From the IMG/VR virus record IMGVR_UViG_3300032246_002207, positions 1-22,490 of that record: a stretch of 22,490 nucleotides of DNA; one strand, given 5' to 3'. Shown here one piece after another: positions 1,739 through 12,046 of the stretch. Numbering within the stretch: the first letter of the stretch is position 1; each line of letters begins with the position of its first letter. The notes below the pieces were generated by a model. The model saw only the letters and a program-made list of their open reading frames with translations, made no database searches and was not told the origin of the DNA. The position numbers were made by a program, and so were the translations under genes. The DNA is from a virus.

Positions 1739-2131
1739 GTGTGGACCTATGATAATCAACCTTTTGATGCACCCAAAGAAGACCAATACGGCTTCGTCTA
1801 TATCATCACCAACAATGTAACAGGACGTCAGTACATTGGTAAAAAGCTCTTCTGGTTTAAAAAGACACGCCAGGTCAAGGGCAAAAAGAAACGCTACCTA
1901 GTTGAGTCAGATTGGCGAGACTACTGGGGCAGCAACGACGAACTCAAAAAAGATATTGAAGAACTCGGCATTGACAAATTCAGCCGGGCTATACTATACT
2001 TGTGTGTAAATAAAGGTGAATGCAGTTATATGGAAGCAAAACTGCATTTTGAATATGATGTTCTCAGATATCCTGACAAATGGTACAATTCCTGGATCAT
2101 GTGTCGCGTACATAGAAAGCATTTAAAATGA
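1739..2131 (+). CDS. GIY-YIG family nuclease
   Basis: A 130-residue single-domain protein. GFVYIITNNVTGRQYIGKK (about residues 18-36) is the GIY-YIG core (VYI...YIG). It is followed by a basic stretch, DWRDYWGS, a Glu in SYMEAKLHFEYDVL and Asn in KWYNSW, which match the family's catalytic Glu and downstream Asn. Proteins of this form, starting with a W-Y motif before the GIY-YIG core and ending in CRxxxxxLK, occur in many marine T4-type phages and may be free-standing homing-like endonucleases. The start is GTG at 1739; a nearby ATG is out of frame. The stop overlaps the next gene (ATGA). There is no obvious DNA-recognition domain. Confidence 0.8.
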   Translation: MWTYDNQPFDAPKEDQYGFVYIITNNVTGRQYIGKKLFWFKKTRQVKGKKKRYLVESDWRDYWGSNDELKKDIEELGIDKFSRAILYLCVNKGECSYMEAKLHFEYDVLRYPDKWYNSWIMCRVHRKHLK

Positions 2132-3237
2132 TATTCGTCGGTCTAATTTTCCTCAGTGCTCTGCTAGTCAGTGGCTGTGCCGCCTTCTTCAGTGTGGCTG
2201 GATTGATTAGCATCTTTAGTAGTGCGCCCCTGGCCACTGGAATCATGGGAGGTAGTCTTGAACTCGCTAAATTGGTTGCTGCAAGTTGGTTGTATCGTAA
2301 TTGGGGCACTGCTCCTGCCGCTCTTCGCTATTATTTTGCTTCCGCGATTGTTATTCTTAGCATCATTACGAGCCTGGGCATTTTTGGTTATCTATCCAAG
2401 GCCCACCTGGATCAGAATGTCATCACGGGCTCGGCCACCGGTCAACTACAAGTCATAGATGAAAAGATAACCACACACAAGGAGAATATCAATGCCAACC
2501 GCAAGGCACTTAAACAGATGGATGAGGCAGTGGACCAGGTTATGGGCCGGAGTAGTGATGAAAAGGGAGCAGATAAAGCCGTGGCTCTCCGTAGGACCCA
2601 GCAAAAGGAACGTGGGCGTCTCCTTGCTGAGATTGAAGCCGAACAGAAGGCTGTTGGCGACCTTAATGAAGCGCGGGCGCCTATCGCCTCTGATGTTCGC
2701 CGGGTGGAGGCCGAGGTGGGTCCGATTAAATATGTCGCGGAACTTATCTATGGGGAGAGCACCGAAGACATGATTGGCAGGTCGGTTCGACTGGTGATCA
2801 TGTGTCTGATCTTTGTATTTGATCCTCTGGCTATCTTGATGGTCATTGCTGGCAACATGACCATGGTACAGCGCCAGACCAAGGCAGAACCAATCTTTGT
2901 TGCCGATGTCACCATGCCCGAACCCGAGCCCAAGCCCAGACGTCAGCGCAAAAAGAAAGAGGTAGCCGAGTTTCAGCAGGTCAAGGCTGAAACCAATGCC
3001 CCAAGCTGGATTAGCGAAGAAACCTTTGAGTATGAAGCAACCAAGAAGGCCGAGGTTGATCCCGACGAAATCAAATTGCACAAGCGCGAAGTGCATCAGA
3101 TCCCACCAGAGATACTGGACCGGGTTTTCAACAATTCTCAGGGCACGCGCCCACAACATCCACACGCAAACGCGCAGCAGCCTCCGCCCCAAGAAGAGCC
3201 TAAGTCATTGATAACATTGAAGAAAAATAGTCAATGA
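2128..3237 (+). CDS. multi-pass membrane protein with long coiled coil, unknown function
   Basis: A 369-residue protein with three hydrophobic segments in the first 90 residues, then a charged, Gln/Glu/Lys/Ala-rich region (about 100-205) likely to form a coiled coil. A fourth membrane segment follows near residues 221-245 (VRLVIMCLIFVFDPLAILMVI), then a long basic and Pro/Glu-rich tail. The start MIFVGLIFLSALLVSGCAA looks like a signal or lipobox (VSGC) but continues into further membrane helices, so I read it as a membrane anchor. Similar coil-containing membrane proteins occur in T4-type marine phages with no assigned role; an inner-membrane location is inferred. The extreme 3' end contains half of an inverted repeat (3205-3246). 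Confidence 0.75.
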   Translation: MIFVGLIFLSALLVSGCAAFFSVAGLISIFSSAPLATGIMGGSLELAKLVAASWLYRNWGTAPAALRYYFASAIVILSIITSLGIFGYLSKAHLDQNVITGSATGQLQVIDEKITTHKENINANRKALKQMDEAVDQVMGRSSDEKGADKAVALRRTQQKERGRLLAEIEAEQKAVGDLNEARAPIASDVRRVEAEVGPIKYVAELIYGESTEDMIGRSVRLVIMCLIFVFDPLAILMVIAGNMTMVQRQTKAEPIFVADVTMPEPEPKPRRQRKKKEVAEFQQVKAETNAPSWISEETFEYEATKKAEVDPDEIKLHKREVHQIPPEILDRVFNNSQGTRPQHPHANAQQPPPQEEPKSLITLKKNSQ

Positions 3238-3246
3238 AATCAATGA
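3205..3246. repeat. imperfect inverted repeat of TCATTGA motifs at the gene end
   Basis: TCATTGATAACATTGA (3205-3220) and TCAATGAAATCAATGA (3231-3246) are complementary at 14 of 16 positions around a 10-nt A-rich loop. Each arm is itself two copies, exact or nearly so, of a 7-bp unit (TCATTGA or its complement) spaced by 2 bp. The reverse complement of the right arm recurs exactly at 11659-11674, before another promoter. It could be a protein-binding site or an RNA hairpin; it is too AT-rich for a standard terminator. Confidence 0.5.
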
Positions 3247-3254
3247 GTTAGCAC

Positions 3255-3271
3255 TGCCTGAAAAACAGGCA
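3255..3271. repeat. stem-loop TGCCTG-AAAAA-CAGGCA, copy 1
   Basis: A perfect 6-bp stem with a five-A loop in the noncoding gap, about 45 bp before a promoter. The same 17 bases plus four more (21 in all) recur at 11584-11604 inside the 3' end of the DUF6433-like gene. There is no T-run after it, so termination is doubtful. Confidence 0.55.
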
Positions 3272-3313
3272 GAAATCAGGCTGCGGAACCCAAGCACGAC
3301 GGGGCGAAAATAA

Positions 3314-3348
3314 GGCTTGACAAAACGGTCAAAGGTGCTATAATAGTA
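3314..3348 (+). repeat. promoter-containing direct repeat, left copy
   Basis: This 35-bp segment, from GGCTTGACA through ATAATAGTA, matches 3676-3710 at 32 of 35 positions. The two copies bracket the GIY-YIG gene at 3351-3671. Confidence 0.75.
3317..3344 (+). promoter_or_regulatory. sigma-70-type promoter of the second GIY-YIG gene
   Basis: TTGACA (3317-3322), a 16-bp spacer and TATAAT (3339-3344) with an extended TGC just before the -10. The predicted start, seven bases after the -10, is 3351, the A of the ATG of the next gene. The mRNA would therefore be leaderless or nearly so. Confidence 0.8.
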
Positions 3349-3350
3349 GC

Positions 3351-3671
3351 ATGAACAGAAAAAAACGATCAGACAGACGCCATATAGTATATGTCATCAC
3401 CAATACCGTGACTGACGAGCGCTATGTGGGCATTACTGCTGGATATTCCCAGAAAGACCTCAAAGTTCGCATCCAGAAGCATGTCTGGAGAGCATTCAAC
3501 GAAGACAAGGGCTGGGCTCTGTGCAACTCAATCGTCAAGTATGGCACCGTAGCCCATACCTATGGCATCTATCAAGTTGTTCGCGGTAAAGAAGCAGCTC
3601 ATGCTTTAGAACGCGAATTGATCGCAATTCACAATCCAGCACTTAACCATACAGGTCGTAAGGGCTTTTGA
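3351..3671 (+). CDS. GIY-YIG family nuclease (cassette between promoter repeats)
   Basis: A 106-residue single-domain protein with a basic N-terminus. IVYVITNTVTDERYVGIT (about residues 12-29) is the GIY-YIG core; Arg in KVRIQKH, Glu in ALEREL and Asn in NPALNH occupy the expected catalytic positions. It is smaller than, and not obviously a copy of, the GIY-YIG protein at 1739. There is no ribosome binding site before the ATG, which coincides with the predicted transcription start. Near-identical promoters on both sides suggest the gene arrived as a cassette. A homing or mobility role is inference. Confidence 0.8.
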   Translation: MNRKKRSDRRHIVYVITNTVTDERYVGITAGYSQKDLKVRIQKHVWRAFNEDKGWALCNSIVKYGTVAHTYGIYQVVRGKEAAHALERELIAIHNPALNHTGRKGF

Positions 3672-3675
3672 AAAA

Positions 3676-3710
3676 GGCTTGACAAAATGGTAAAAGGTGC
3701 TACAATAGTA
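3676..3710 (+). repeat. promoter-containing direct repeat, right copy
   Basis: Right partner of the repeat at 3314-3348, 32 of 35 bases identical, beginning five bases after the GIY-YIG stop codon. Confidence 0.75.
3679..3706 (+). promoter_or_regulatory. sigma-70-type promoter before a small gene
   Basis: TTGACA (3679-3684), 16-bp spacer, TACAAT (3701-3706) with extended TGC. The predicted start near 3713 gives a leader of about 25 nt containing the ribosome binding site AAGGAG (3726-3731) of the gene at 3738. Confidence 0.8.
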
Positions 3711-3737
3711 TGTAAGATGGTTAAGAAGGAGATGAAA

Positions 3738-3950
3738 ATGGTGCAATATTTTGGAATGTACAGCGACGCCGGCAATGAGGCAGTGGCAGATGTAGTAGCA
3801 TTTGCTGGTAAATTGAACATGGATTGGACCGGCGTCTATGGTCTGCTTGTTCAGCTTTCCAAGAAAGAAGAATTTGGCGAAGCAACCGATACCATGGTTC
3901 GTGAGATCGTCTATGATGCCATGGGGTTCACTTCTGATTTTTATGTTTAA
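3738..3950 (+). CDS. small phage protein of unknown function
   Basis: A 70-residue mixed-charge protein with no recognised motif (begins MVQYFGMYSDAGNEAVADVV). The ATG at 3738 is chosen because AAGGAG lies six bases upstream; the earlier in-frame ATGs at 3687 and 3717 lack this site, and the first lies inside the promoter. It is the first gene of a run of small genes likely read from the promoter at 3679. Soluble and cytoplasmic by composition. Confidence 0.65.
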   Translation: MVQYFGMYSDAGNEAVADVVAFAGKLNMDWTGVYGLLVQLSKKEEFGEATDTMVREIVYDAMGFTSDFYV

Positions 3951-3960
3951 GGAGCAGACG

Positions 3961-4143
3961 ATGAGCGACGAAGCAAAAGGCATGGCACTGGTCATGACCA
4001 GTATTCTTCTAGGTCTGGGTATTGTCGGTGGCATAGAAAATGCTGCGGACCTGGATTTTGGTTTGACCATGTCCTATTTTGGACTGGTATTGTTGAGCAT
4101 TGCCACTGGCTTGCTGGGTTTGTCTTATTTGGAGGCTTTATGA
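3961..4143 (+). CDS. small two-helix membrane protein
   Basis: Sixty residues with a hydrophilic N-terminus (MSDEAKGM) and two hydrophobic helices (about residues 9-25 and 37-57) separated by an acidic loop. AAGGAG at 3949-3954 supports ATG 3961, although the frame is open further upstream. Function unknown; two short helices fit a small phage inner-membrane protein, but nothing specific supports a holin. Confidence 0.6.
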   Translation: MSDEAKGMALVMTSILLGLGIVGGIENAADLDFGLTMSYFGLVLLSIATGLLGLSYLEAL

Positions 4144-4457
4144 AATTATTGGTTACTACTCAGGTTTATGAAAACTACGGCGCCCACGACTGGGACGGCA
4201 CCGGTGAGTGCCCTCAGTATTGGAAGGCCAAGGGTGGCAATGATTATGTCATCAAGAACTTCAAGGGCGGTTCCGAACAGGCCACGGCGGCTGTGATGAG
4301 CGTCTGGAATCAGGTAGAGTGTGATACCGTGGCCTTCCGTGAGACCATACTGGGTTGGAACATTGTTGCCGACGACTATCTCACAGAGTTCGAGAAGAGC
4401 CAGCTGGAGTATGAGGGCAAGATTACCTACCCTGCCAAGGAATTGGAGTGGGTATGA
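4140..4457 (+). CDS. conserved phage protein of unknown function
   Basis: A 105-residue protein beginning MKLLVTTQVYENYGAHDWDG and continuing with GECPQYWKAKGG. I recognise this opening from hypothetical proteins of phages and plasmids, but know of no function. It is soluble, with no cysteine pairs or membrane segment. Overlaps of ATGA type with both neighbours place it in the small-gene operon. Confidence 0.7.
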   Translation: MKLLVTTQVYENYGAHDWDGTGECPQYWKAKGGNDYVIKNFKGGSEQATAAVMSVWNQVECDTVAFRETILGWNIVADDYLTEFEKSQLEYEGKITYPAKELEWV

Positions 4458-10257: not shown

Positions 10258-11160
10258 ATGATCATTGTTGACTTTAACCAGACGGCTATTAGCACGCTCA
10301 TGGGCGAGCTAGCTGGCCGCACCGATGTGGAGATTCGCAAGGACCTGATCCGTCACATGATTATCAACGCCATTCGCAGCTACAAGGTAAAATTTGGAGC
10401 TGAGTTTGGCGAGATTGTCATAGCCTGCGATAACCGCCACTACTGGCGCAAGGATAAATTCCCCTACTACAAGGCCAGCCGTAAAAAGGCTCGCGCCGAT
10501 TCAGGCTTTGACTGGAAGCTGATCTTTGACACCTTGTCGGAGATCCGTGCCGAGCTCAATGCCTTCTTTCCCTATACTGTGATCGATGTTGACGGCGCCG
10601 AAGCCGACGACGTAATTGCCGTGCTAGCCGAATGGACTCAGACCAATGACCTCAGACAAGATGGTATGTTTGGCGAACAGGTGCCACAGCCTGTACTGAT
10701 TCTCAGCGGCGACCACGACTTCATTCAGCTGCAGAAGTTCAAGAATGTGCAGCAGTACAGTCCTATCCATAAAAAATGGATCAAGCCTGACAGCAGCGTG
10801 AACAGCTACCTCATGGAACATATTATCAAAGGCGACAAAGGCGATGGCATTCCTAATATTCTTAGTCCTGATGATTGCTTTATTACTGAGACTCGGCAGA
10901 AACCGATAACAGCTAAAAAGCTCGAAGCCTGGGAGACCATCTCTCCCGATGATTTCCACAACGTGGAATCCAATGTGGATGTGCAGCGCAATTTTAATCG
11001 CAATCGCTACCTCATTGATTTTGAATATATACCTGATCCGGTCCGGAATAACATTCTGGGTGTCTGGGTCGATCGTCCACACAAGGACCGCAGTCAACTG
11101 CTCAATTACTTCATGGAACATAAAATGAAGAACATGATTGATCATCTAGGAGAATTTTAA
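10258..11160 (+). CDS. rnh: RNase H / 5'-3' exonuclease, T4 Rnh type
   Basis: A 300-residue FEN1/T4 RNase H-type nuclease that removes RNA primers from Okazaki fragments. Acidic metal ligands appear in order: Asp5 in VDFNQ, Asp58 in CDNRHYWRKDKFPYYK with the conserved basic helix, Glu115/Asp117/Asp118 in GAEADDVI, Asp152 and Asp154 in SGDHDF, and Asp193/Asp196 in KGDKGDGIPN (helix-hairpin-helix-like region). The length matches T4 Rnh (about 305). It acts with DNA ligase (14489) on the lagging strand. It has its own promoter, and its stop overlaps the next start by one base. Confidence 0.92.
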   Translation: MIIVDFNQTAISTLMGELAGRTDVEIRKDLIRHMIINAIRSYKVKFGAEFGEIVIACDNRHYWRKDKFPYYKASRKKARADSGFDWKLIFDTLSEIRAELNAFFPYTVIDVDGAEADDVIAVLAEWTQTNDLRQDGMFGEQVPQPVLILSGDHDFIQLQKFKNVQQYSPIHKKWIKPDSSVNSYLMEHIIKGDKGDGIPNILSPDDCFITETRQKPITAKKLEAWETISPDDFHNVESNVDVQRNFNRNRYLIDFEYIPDPVRNNILGVWVDRPHKDRSQLLNYFMEHKMKNMIDHLGEF

Positions 11161-11657
11161 TGAGATTGTATATACCAGAAATCCTGCAGCAGGTAGCTGA
11201 TGCTGCACCCGAGGAGCGTGCCCAGATATTAAAGAACAATGCAGGCAATGTGCTGTTAAAAGAAGTACTATTGCTGAACTTTGGACCCGCAGTATTTGAT
11301 CTGCCCGCAGGCAAGGCACCCTACAAGGCCAGTGCCCAGCCTCTGGGTCTGACCGAGACCAATCTCTATGCCGAGAGCCGTCGTCTATATCTGCTGGTCA
11401 AGGATCATCCGCGCCGTCCTAAAAACCTCAAGCGCCTGCAGATTGAGAACATCTTTATTCAGATGCTGGAAGGTATTCATGTATCCGAGGCCAACATGTT
11501 GAATGTCTTGAAAGACAAAGCACTAGCCCAAGCCTATCCTGGGCTGACCGAGGCAGTGGTAAGGGCAGCATTCCCCGATCTTTTGCCTGAAAAACAGGCA
11601 GAAAATGTGGCAGAAACCAGGCGACCCGTGGGACGCCCCCGAAAAGTAGTGGCGTAA
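11160..11657 (+). CDS. DUF6433-like T4-type phage protein
   Basis: A 165-residue protein beginning RLYIPEILQQVADA, with ESRRLYLLVKDHP, IFIQMLEGIHVSEANMLNVLKDKAL and YPGLTEAVVRAAFPD. This matches a family of unknown function (DUF6433) found beside replication genes in T4-type phages. The C-terminal tail ends PVGRPRK, an AT-hook-like basic motif that could contact DNA. The part of the gene coding LPEKQAE carries the stem-loop also found at 3255-3271. It overlaps the RNase H gene (TAATG), so co-expression is likely. Confidence 0.75.
   Translation: MRLYIPEILQQVADAAPEERAQILKNNAGNVLLKEVLLLNFGPAVFDLPAGKAPYKASAQPLGLTETNLYAESRRLYLLVKDHPRRPKNLKRLQIENIFIQMLEGIHVSEANMLNVLKDKALAQAYPGLTEAVVRAAFPDLLPEKQAENVAETRRPVGRPRKVVA
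11584..11600. repeat. stem-loop TGCCTG-AAAAA-CAGGCA, copy 2
   Basis: Identical to 3255-3271, with the match extending four more bases to 11604. Here it lies in the 3' end of the DUF6433-like coding sequence. Confidence 0.55.
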
Positions 11658-11658
11658 G

Positions 11659-11674
11659 TCATTGATTTCATTGA
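11659..11674. repeat. TCATTGA tandem motif before a promoter
   Basis: TCATTGATTTCATTGA is the exact reverse complement of 3231-3246 and matches 3205-3220 at 14 of 16 bases. With the four bases to its left (TAAG), it matches 3201-3220 at 18 of 20. It lies 13 bp before the -35 box of the promoter at 11688. Confidence 0.5.
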
Positions 11675-11687
11675 TGTTTTTTCAGGC

Positions 11688-11716
11688 TTGACAACTGGGT
11701 GAAATGGTGCTATAAT
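11688..11716 (+). promoter_or_regulatory. sigma-70-type promoter
   Basis: TTGACA (11688-11693), 17-bp spacer, TATAAT (11711-11716), extended TGC and the GGC preceding the -35 that is shared with other promoters in this window. The leader to ATG 11747 is about 24 nt. Confidence 0.85.
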
Positions 11717-11746: not shown

Positions 11747-12046
11747 ATGTCAAAGCTCACTCACTATACCATTGAAGTCTACAAAGCCGACAAGCGCATC
11801 AAGAAAGATGCCCGCTATGGCAAGGATAAAAAAGGACTGCGTTTCGTAGATGTCATCGATTTTGCTCCCTCAACCAAGGACTATATCGACACTGTGGTCA
11901 AGCGCTATGTTCGCGATGGTTACTTTGCCCAGGCTTTCGAGACCTATGTCATCAAGCAGAATCTCATCGGCGGCAAAGAGTTTGCTGAACGCTATGATAC
12001 ACCGAATTTTTGCTCACCATCCAGCGAGTCTTATTGGAGCATGTAA
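11747..12046 (+). CDS. small basic protein of unknown function (single-gene cassette)
   Basis: A 99-residue basic protein (opening MSKLTHYTIEVYKADKRIKK) resembling hypothetical proteins of other large phages, with no known role. ATG 11747 is selected over upstream codons because it follows the promoter and has AAAGG about 7 nt upstream. It is flanked by the promoters at 11688 and 12050, so it forms a one-gene unit. Confidence 0.6.
   Translation: MSKLTHYTIEVYKADKRIKKDARYGKDKKGLRFVDVIDFAPSTKDYIDTVVKRYVRDGYFAQAFETYVIKQNLIGGKEFAERYDTPNFCSPSSESYWSM

Follow-up and report, generated by a model that had tools for sequence, protein, structure and literature searches.

Hairpin, IHF-type sites and early promoter recur together at gene boundaries as a putative regulatory cassette of T4-type phages

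Two distant loci in a stretch of viral DNA from IMG/VR (22,490 nucleotides, hereafter the window) share a hairpin, a TCATTGA-containing element and a strong early promoter. Judged from sequence comparison, these loci, A and B, are probably copies of one composite regulatory cassette for the early genes of a T4-type phage, with a putative role for the host protein IHF. The T4-type character of the 22.5-kb window is evident from its RNase H, DUF6433 and SegE-like GIY-YIG proteins; the nearest named-phage homologues of the RNase H, from cyanophages and the Methylophilales phage Melnitz, are about 47-49% identical to it. A nucleotide search of named phages with the region of locus A (2100-4200) gave no match, and a text search of the literature for the sequence of the element returned nothing relevant. 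On this reading the cassette sits where one gene ends and the next begins, and combines a hairpin at the 3' end with one or two IHF-type sites (YAANNNNTTGATW with an A/T-tract) and a strong early promoter of the sigma70 type. Host IHF would bind the site and bend the DNA immediately before the -35 box, always on the same helical face, and the bending would shape the activity of the early promoter. The hairpin, joined in relatives by a true terminator, would close or stabilise the upstream transcript. Recombination between cassette copies would swap small early genes in a tolerated crossover zone, leaving the neighbours intact because the cassette supplies stop codons, a promoter and often a leader and ribosome-binding site.

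Locus A is bracketed by two GIY-YIG genes, at 1739-2131 and 3351-3671. It holds two IHF-type cores arranged head to head, A1 (TAAGTCATTGATA, 3201..3213, plus strand) and A2 (TAACTCATTGATT, 3238..3250, minus strand), with an A5 tract after A1 that is common to both. Together the paired sites form a single 52-nt palindrome (3200..3251), overlooked in the earlier note, which is conserved in relatives and folds as RNA at -17.4 kcal/mol (z -7.6). The upstream ORF (orf2128, 2128..3237, plus strand) enters the palindrome with its final codons (..PKSLITLKKNSQ*) and takes its stop from it. Next come the noncoding hairpin copy A (CTGCCTG-AAAAA-CAGGCAG, 3254..3272, plus strand), without a U-tract after it, and a sigma70-like early promoter (TTGACA-16-TATAAT, 3317..3344, plus strand) with an extended -10 TG. 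The cargo gene of this locus encodes a GIY-YIG endonuclease-like protein (3351..3671, plus strand), and its ATG stands about 7 nt past the -10 box, so that its transcript may be leaderless. The spacing between this ATG and the -10 box (3338-3353 in the window) is similar in relatives.

At locus B, the DUF6433 gene (11160..11657, plus strand; PF20025 match, E 7.7e-21, which bears out an earlier assignment) carries hairpin copy B (11584..11600, plus strand) within the 3' end of its coding sequence, where it reads LPEKQAE. The TAA stop of this gene forms the first three bases of a single IHF-type core, B (TAAGTCATTGATT, 11655..11667, plus strand). A T6 tract (11677..11682, plus strand) lies at A-tract spacing from core B, comparable to that of the lambda H' site. 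The early promoter (TTGACA-17-TATAAT, 11688..11716, plus strand) has 19 bp between the end of core B and its CTTGAC, and its hexamers, like those at locus A, match at 12/12 positions. Its cargo gene, orf11747 (11747..12046, plus strand), stands behind other genes in relatives. The elements that the earlier note had described as shared were all recovered: the identical 21-nt segment TGCCTGAAAAACAGGCAGAAA at 3255-3275 and 11584-11604, the motif TCATTGATTTCATTGA at 3231-3246 (minus strand) and 11659-11674 (plus strand), its imperfect 14/16 copy TCATTGATAACATTGA at 3205-3220, and the promoter GGCTTGACA..TGCTATAAT at 3317-3344 and 11688-11716.

The sharing of hairpin segment, TCATTGATTTCATTGA motif and early promoter by both loci far exceeds chance. 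When the window was Markov-shuffled 300 times, no k-mer of at least 19 nt was ever repeated; the mean number of tract-bearing IHF-type sites was 0.07 (3 observed), and GCTTGACA-type promoters were absent (5 observed). The same type of promoter is also found at 3679, 12050 and 14294, there without the TCATTGATTTCATTGA motif, so the novelty shared by loci A and B is limited to the hairpin and the TCATTGA element. The element was also considered as a host repeat; this candidate was rejected, as the 17-mer is present in 3 of 369 class-mate genomes and resembles the phage element in only one.

The best reading of the TCATTGA element is that it is a predicted host IHF-type site. Core B, TAAGTCATTGATT, is the reverse complement of AATCAATGACTTA and fits the 13-bp IHF consensus WATCARNNNNTTR perfectly, and both cores of locus A match this consensus as well. 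In strong IHF sites the consensus WATCARNNNNTTR is preceded by an A-tract (PMC8421141); core B of the window is followed by a T-tract at IHF spacing. As a positive control, the 601 bp around lambda attP were scanned with the pattern [CT]AA....[TC]TGAT[AT], which matched three times and no more (TAAGTAGTTGATT, TAATATATTGATA and CAACAAATTGATA..GCTTTTTT). The three matches lie at the places of H1, H2 and H', the established IHF sites of attP. In IMG/VR, TAA[GC]TCATTGATTTCATTGA occurs in at least 118 contigs and the reversed pattern in none; among the matches listed, positions +23 to +27 are A/T-rich in 57 cases with unrelated flanks. To see whether the unit behaves as a binding site or as a copied repeat, all four N positions of the IHF consensus were freed (TAANNNNTTGATTTCATTGANNTTTT), which retrieved at least 119 stretches from IMG/VR; among the matches listed, the freed block takes 30 different tetranucleotides in 68 unrelated contexts. 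The earlier claim that the 7-bp repeats are an extra element thus holds, and consensus match, variable N4 block and lambda control account for them as IHF-type sites. No gene of the HU/IHF family was found in the window, in a 166.9-kb relative (G003) or in Aeromonas phage Ah1, so the IHF of the host would be the one used.

The IHF-type unit is not confined to such cassettes. In many unrelated IMG/VR virus contigs it lies amid short iterated repeats resembling replication or regulatory regions, and adjacent cores in unrelated contigs are often about 25-27 or 36-38 bp apart among the matches listed. A promoter is near the site in 26% of cases vs 16% of noncoding controls (among at least 119 unrelated virus sites), a modest increase which indicates that the unit has other uses too. 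Plasmid pACP3.1 of Acidovorax carolinensis (L209, 12185-13857) has 63-nt iterons containing GCTAAGTCATTGATTTCATTG; they adjoin ParB/AAA ATPase and replication genes, and the array is interrupted by an IS481-family transposase gene. Two of the three reading frames through the TCATTGA element end within a few codons. A purposeful stop was nevertheless rejected for the TAA of the core, which is in frame at locus B and out of frame in orf2128 and in geneX, a gene that precedes the orf11747 homologue in several relatives; the stop is probably incidental.

The hairpin appears to be a real stem, with moderate support from ten sequences. It folds at -10.5 kcal/mol, and its variants CTGCCT..AGGCAG, GTGCCT..AGGCAC and GTGTCT..AGACAC all keep pairing. 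Two of the pairs have changed on both sides and 93% of cells are paired vs 86% in shuffles (5/500), a signal that is abolished by sliding the partners. Folding of the locus-B IHF-type site is no better than that of shuffles. An intrinsic terminator consists of a G+C-rich stem and a U-tract; as GAAA follows both window hairpins (3255-3271 and 11584-11600), and neither is among the sites called by a scan of the window, their reading as intrinsic terminators was rejected. The hairpins of the window are stable and have no U-tract; relatives at locus A have a U-rich terminator, CCCTAC..GTAGGGTTTCT. At several boundaries (L005, L008, L172, L026 and L028), a further shared A/T-rich block (TCTTAATAATTTAATAATATT, GCTAATAT) lies 3' of the hairpin.

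It had been suggested that locus A is the decayed 3' end of a DUF6433 gene. The frame LPEKQAEIRLRNPSTTGRK* is indeed open there (stop-to-stop 3221-3313, without a start codon), but beyond the common hairpin the suggestion lacks support. The frame is not kept in three relatives (L019, L020 and L023): L023 reads LPKKQAESPLQSQAPRGENKA* and L020 stops early. The stretch from hairpin to promoter (GCGGAACCCAAGCACGACGGGGCGAAAA) aligns with the same locus of L023 and with noncoding DNA 3' of DUF6433 in L005, L008 and L172 (GCAGAGCCAAGCAGATCAAGGCGAAA), and it does not match the window's own GRPRK tail. The pseudogene reading was therefore rejected. Since locus A resembles noncoding DNA and its frame is not kept, it is better read as a cassette copy, the LPEKQAE reading coming from the hairpin sequence alone. 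Of the earlier interpretation, the likeness to the promoter early stem-loop (PeSL) cassettes and the extra repeats stand and the decayed gene end falls.

Freshwater relatives were retrieved from IMG/VR with the GIY-YIG gene of locus A, the upstream ORF and DUF6433. The full palindrome TAACCCATTGATAACATTGAAGAAAAACATCAATGAAATCAATGACTTA precedes the GIY-YIG gene in many close relatives, and is followed there by often one or two hairpins TGCCTAAAAAACAGGCA, sometimes the terminator named above, and then CTTGAC..TATAAT. In G003, IHF-type sites occur at five places, four of them before promoters (30215, 30846, 47142 and 156723) and the fifth a site pair at 57323-57384 without a promoter match; most early promoters of the window and of G003 have no IHF-type site. 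Among distinct cassettes of the freshwater group in which the tract side faces the promoter, the nearest site is mostly 18-19 bp before CTTGAC, also 29 or 38 bp; where the core side faces it, the distance is 7, 16 or 38-40 bp. Locus A of the window and one relative (L184) are exceptions, with 64-65 bp. Taken over all sites of the freshwater group, helical phasing does not reach significance (p 0.08 and 0.13), and the cassettes of this group share descent.

The genes behind the cassette change from relative to relative. Behind RNase H-DUF6433, about nine different genes come next in 12 relatives, in which the promoter and leader GGTACGTTAAATGAGAAAGG are mostly kept. It is only in the window that orf11747 follows DUF6433; its place is behind geneX in several relatives and behind GIY-YIG in L054. 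Between geneX and the orf11747 homologue, relatives have the same kind of site and promoter. Likewise, the homologue of orf3735, which is behind GIY-YIG in the window, is found behind DUF6433 in L008, L190 and L174. By this comparison the cassette is retained while the downstream gene changes, as in PeSLs, a pattern from which we infer recombination. The search for stem-loop and motif that had been proposed for the genome and its relatives finds both repeatedly at gene borders, accompanied by sigma70-like promoters, and the downstream genes swapped between relatives, which upholds the suggested PeSL likeness.

Among named phages, the best matches of the 30-nt unit (E 0.2 or better) are in phages of Rhizobium, Aeromonas, Methylophilales, Yersinia, Burkholderia, Stenotrophomonas and Caulobacter, and hardly any of them falls inside an annotated gene; Staphylococcus phages are among those with weaker matches, which lie within genes there. 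The T4-like Stenotrophomonas phage DLP6 (KU682439) has 30 exact TAANNNNTTGATT sites and none of the reversed pattern. Most of them form tandem pairs at a spacing of 25-26 bp and immediately precede CTTTAC..TATAAT promoters, and a site lies within 32 bp upstream of 9 of the 11 such promoters that point in gene direction. In eight of these cassettes the nearest core is 10, 11, 20, 20, 21, 21, 21 or 31 bp from the promoter, distances that correspond to one helical face (Rayleigh R 0.96, p about 7e-4); in the ninth the site is in the opposite orientation, 5 bp away. Some DLP6 cassettes have a G+C-rich hairpin ending at the -35 box (e.g., CCCCCGAAAGGGGGCTTTACTTTT), and so the same composite is present in this phage. 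The IHF footprint is about 35 bp. Because the DLP6 cores are 25 bp apart, less than this footprint, and the site pairs lack the A-tract, another factor or partial binding is possible. According to the promoter data given in PMC5349666, DLP6 has 25 PHIRE-predicted 'phage promoters', 22 of them in groups of two before gene clusters. Like these, the 30 IHF-type cores are mostly paired. Unlike in the PHIRE reading, the pairs are taken here as IHF-type sites upstream of CTTTAC..TATAAT promoters; the PHIRE promoters are probably such tandem sites in front of ordinary sigma70-like promoters.

Four copies of the extended motif occur in Aeromonas phage Ah1 and three in Aeromonas phage Aeh1. In both (Ah1, L208 17.8-18.1 kb; Aeh1, L410 2.8-3.1 kb), a long, terminator-like inverted repeat, AAGACAAAATA..TATTTTGTCTT, follows the IHF-type sites and is repeated between genes 54 and 26. 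The extended motif was found in none of T4, RB49, RB43, 44RR, KVP40, three cyanophages, Melnitz and an Ochrobactrum phage. Host IHF alone was rejected as the cause of its presence, since IHF-bearing hosts have T4-type phages without it (T4, RB49, RB43, 44RR and KVP40); the feature is thus sporadic. We tentatively suggest, with less confidence than for the window itself, that the early-promoter cassettes of several T4-type lineages include as standard an IHF-type site (one alone, a tandem pair or a head-to-head pair), which lies on one helical face upstream of the promoter and travels with promoter and hairpin as the unit of early-gene exchange, and that the 'phage promoters' of DLP6 are these sites.

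Three other explanations were weighed. It is rather unlikely that another host or phage regulator binds these IHF-consensus-like sites in a cassette otherwise as described. Such a regulator would suit the spacer TTCATTGA, which is often kept too, beyond the E. coli IHF consensus, the 25-bp tandem pairs of DLP6 and the core distances of about 25-27 and 36-38 bp elsewhere, as well as the presence of the site in only some T4-type lineages. What favours IHF over it is that precisely the four N positions vary when freed, that the tract is at IHF spacing, that the lambda control succeeds, and that the best named-phage matches are intergenic, nearly without exception, and in Pseudomonadota phages.

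Palindrome and hairpin could instead act mainly as RNA, as 3'-end hairpins or terminators of the upstream transcript, with the IHF match secondary. The folding energies of palindrome A and hairpin, the compensatory changes in the latter and the terminator CCCTAC..GTAGGGTTTCT between palindrome and promoter in locus-A relatives all agree with this, yet single sites (locus B, G003 30264 and 47190, and most contigs) cannot form a hairpin and recur as widely, and both window hairpins are without a U-tract; we regard this alternative as improbable. Least likely of all is a selfish dispersed repeat (REP-like or homing-associated) without regulatory role, spread with neighbouring GIY-YIG genes. Such genes do lie on both sides of locus A, and copies are in gene 3' ends in different frames; against this, unrelated flanks and a degenerate N4 block elsewhere fit a binding site rather than a repeat that has been copied, and the DLP6 sites are helically phased to promoters. 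The cassette with a putative role for host IHF remains our preferred reading.

Temperate phages, transposons and plasmids are the classic users of IHF as a co-factor. A literature search combining T4-like phages, IHF and early promoters, of incomplete coverage, found no report of a role for IHF in T4-type early transcription. If our reading is true, these phages rely on a DNA-bending protein of the host in early transcription and in gene exchange, and the published promoter set of a cultured phage, DLP6, needs re-reading. The cassette of the relatives, at several gene borders with different genes, suggests how early genes may be swapped and switched on.

The closest known system is that of the PeSL cassettes, reportedly described in the T4-type phages RB49/phi1 (Arbiol 2010, Comeau 2014). 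These are said to consist of a terminator-type stem-loop beside an early promoter, in several copies, with shuffled genes and with mini-circles arising from recombination between copies. The cassette described here likewise has a strong sigma70-like early promoter, a stem-loop, several copies at gene boundaries (five places in G003, about 15 in DLP6) and shuffled downstream genes. It differs in the added IHF-type sites, helically phased in DLP6 and absent in their extended form from the PeSL phage RB49, and in a window hairpin that has no U-tract and is within coding sequence in one copy. The gene-shuffling pattern of PeSLs is among the material cited in PMC4503421. The IHF sites of lambda attP (H1, H2 and H') share the YAANNNNYTGATW core, and in H' a T6 tract is likewise found at this spacing. 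Unlike them, the sites here are upstream of early promoters of virulent-type phages and not at an attachment site, are single, tandem or head to head, and often keep the spacer TTCATTGA. In activation of the Caulobacter gene transfer agent promoter, IHF assists a dedicated activator, GafY (PMC11150451). As proposed for the cassette, host IHF is bound there upstream of the sigma70 promoter, in that case of a phage-derived gene cluster, and bending is thought to assist initiation; GafY is at a degenerate -35 box in that system, whereas the cassette described here has no known activator site and its -35 and -10 boxes are near consensus.
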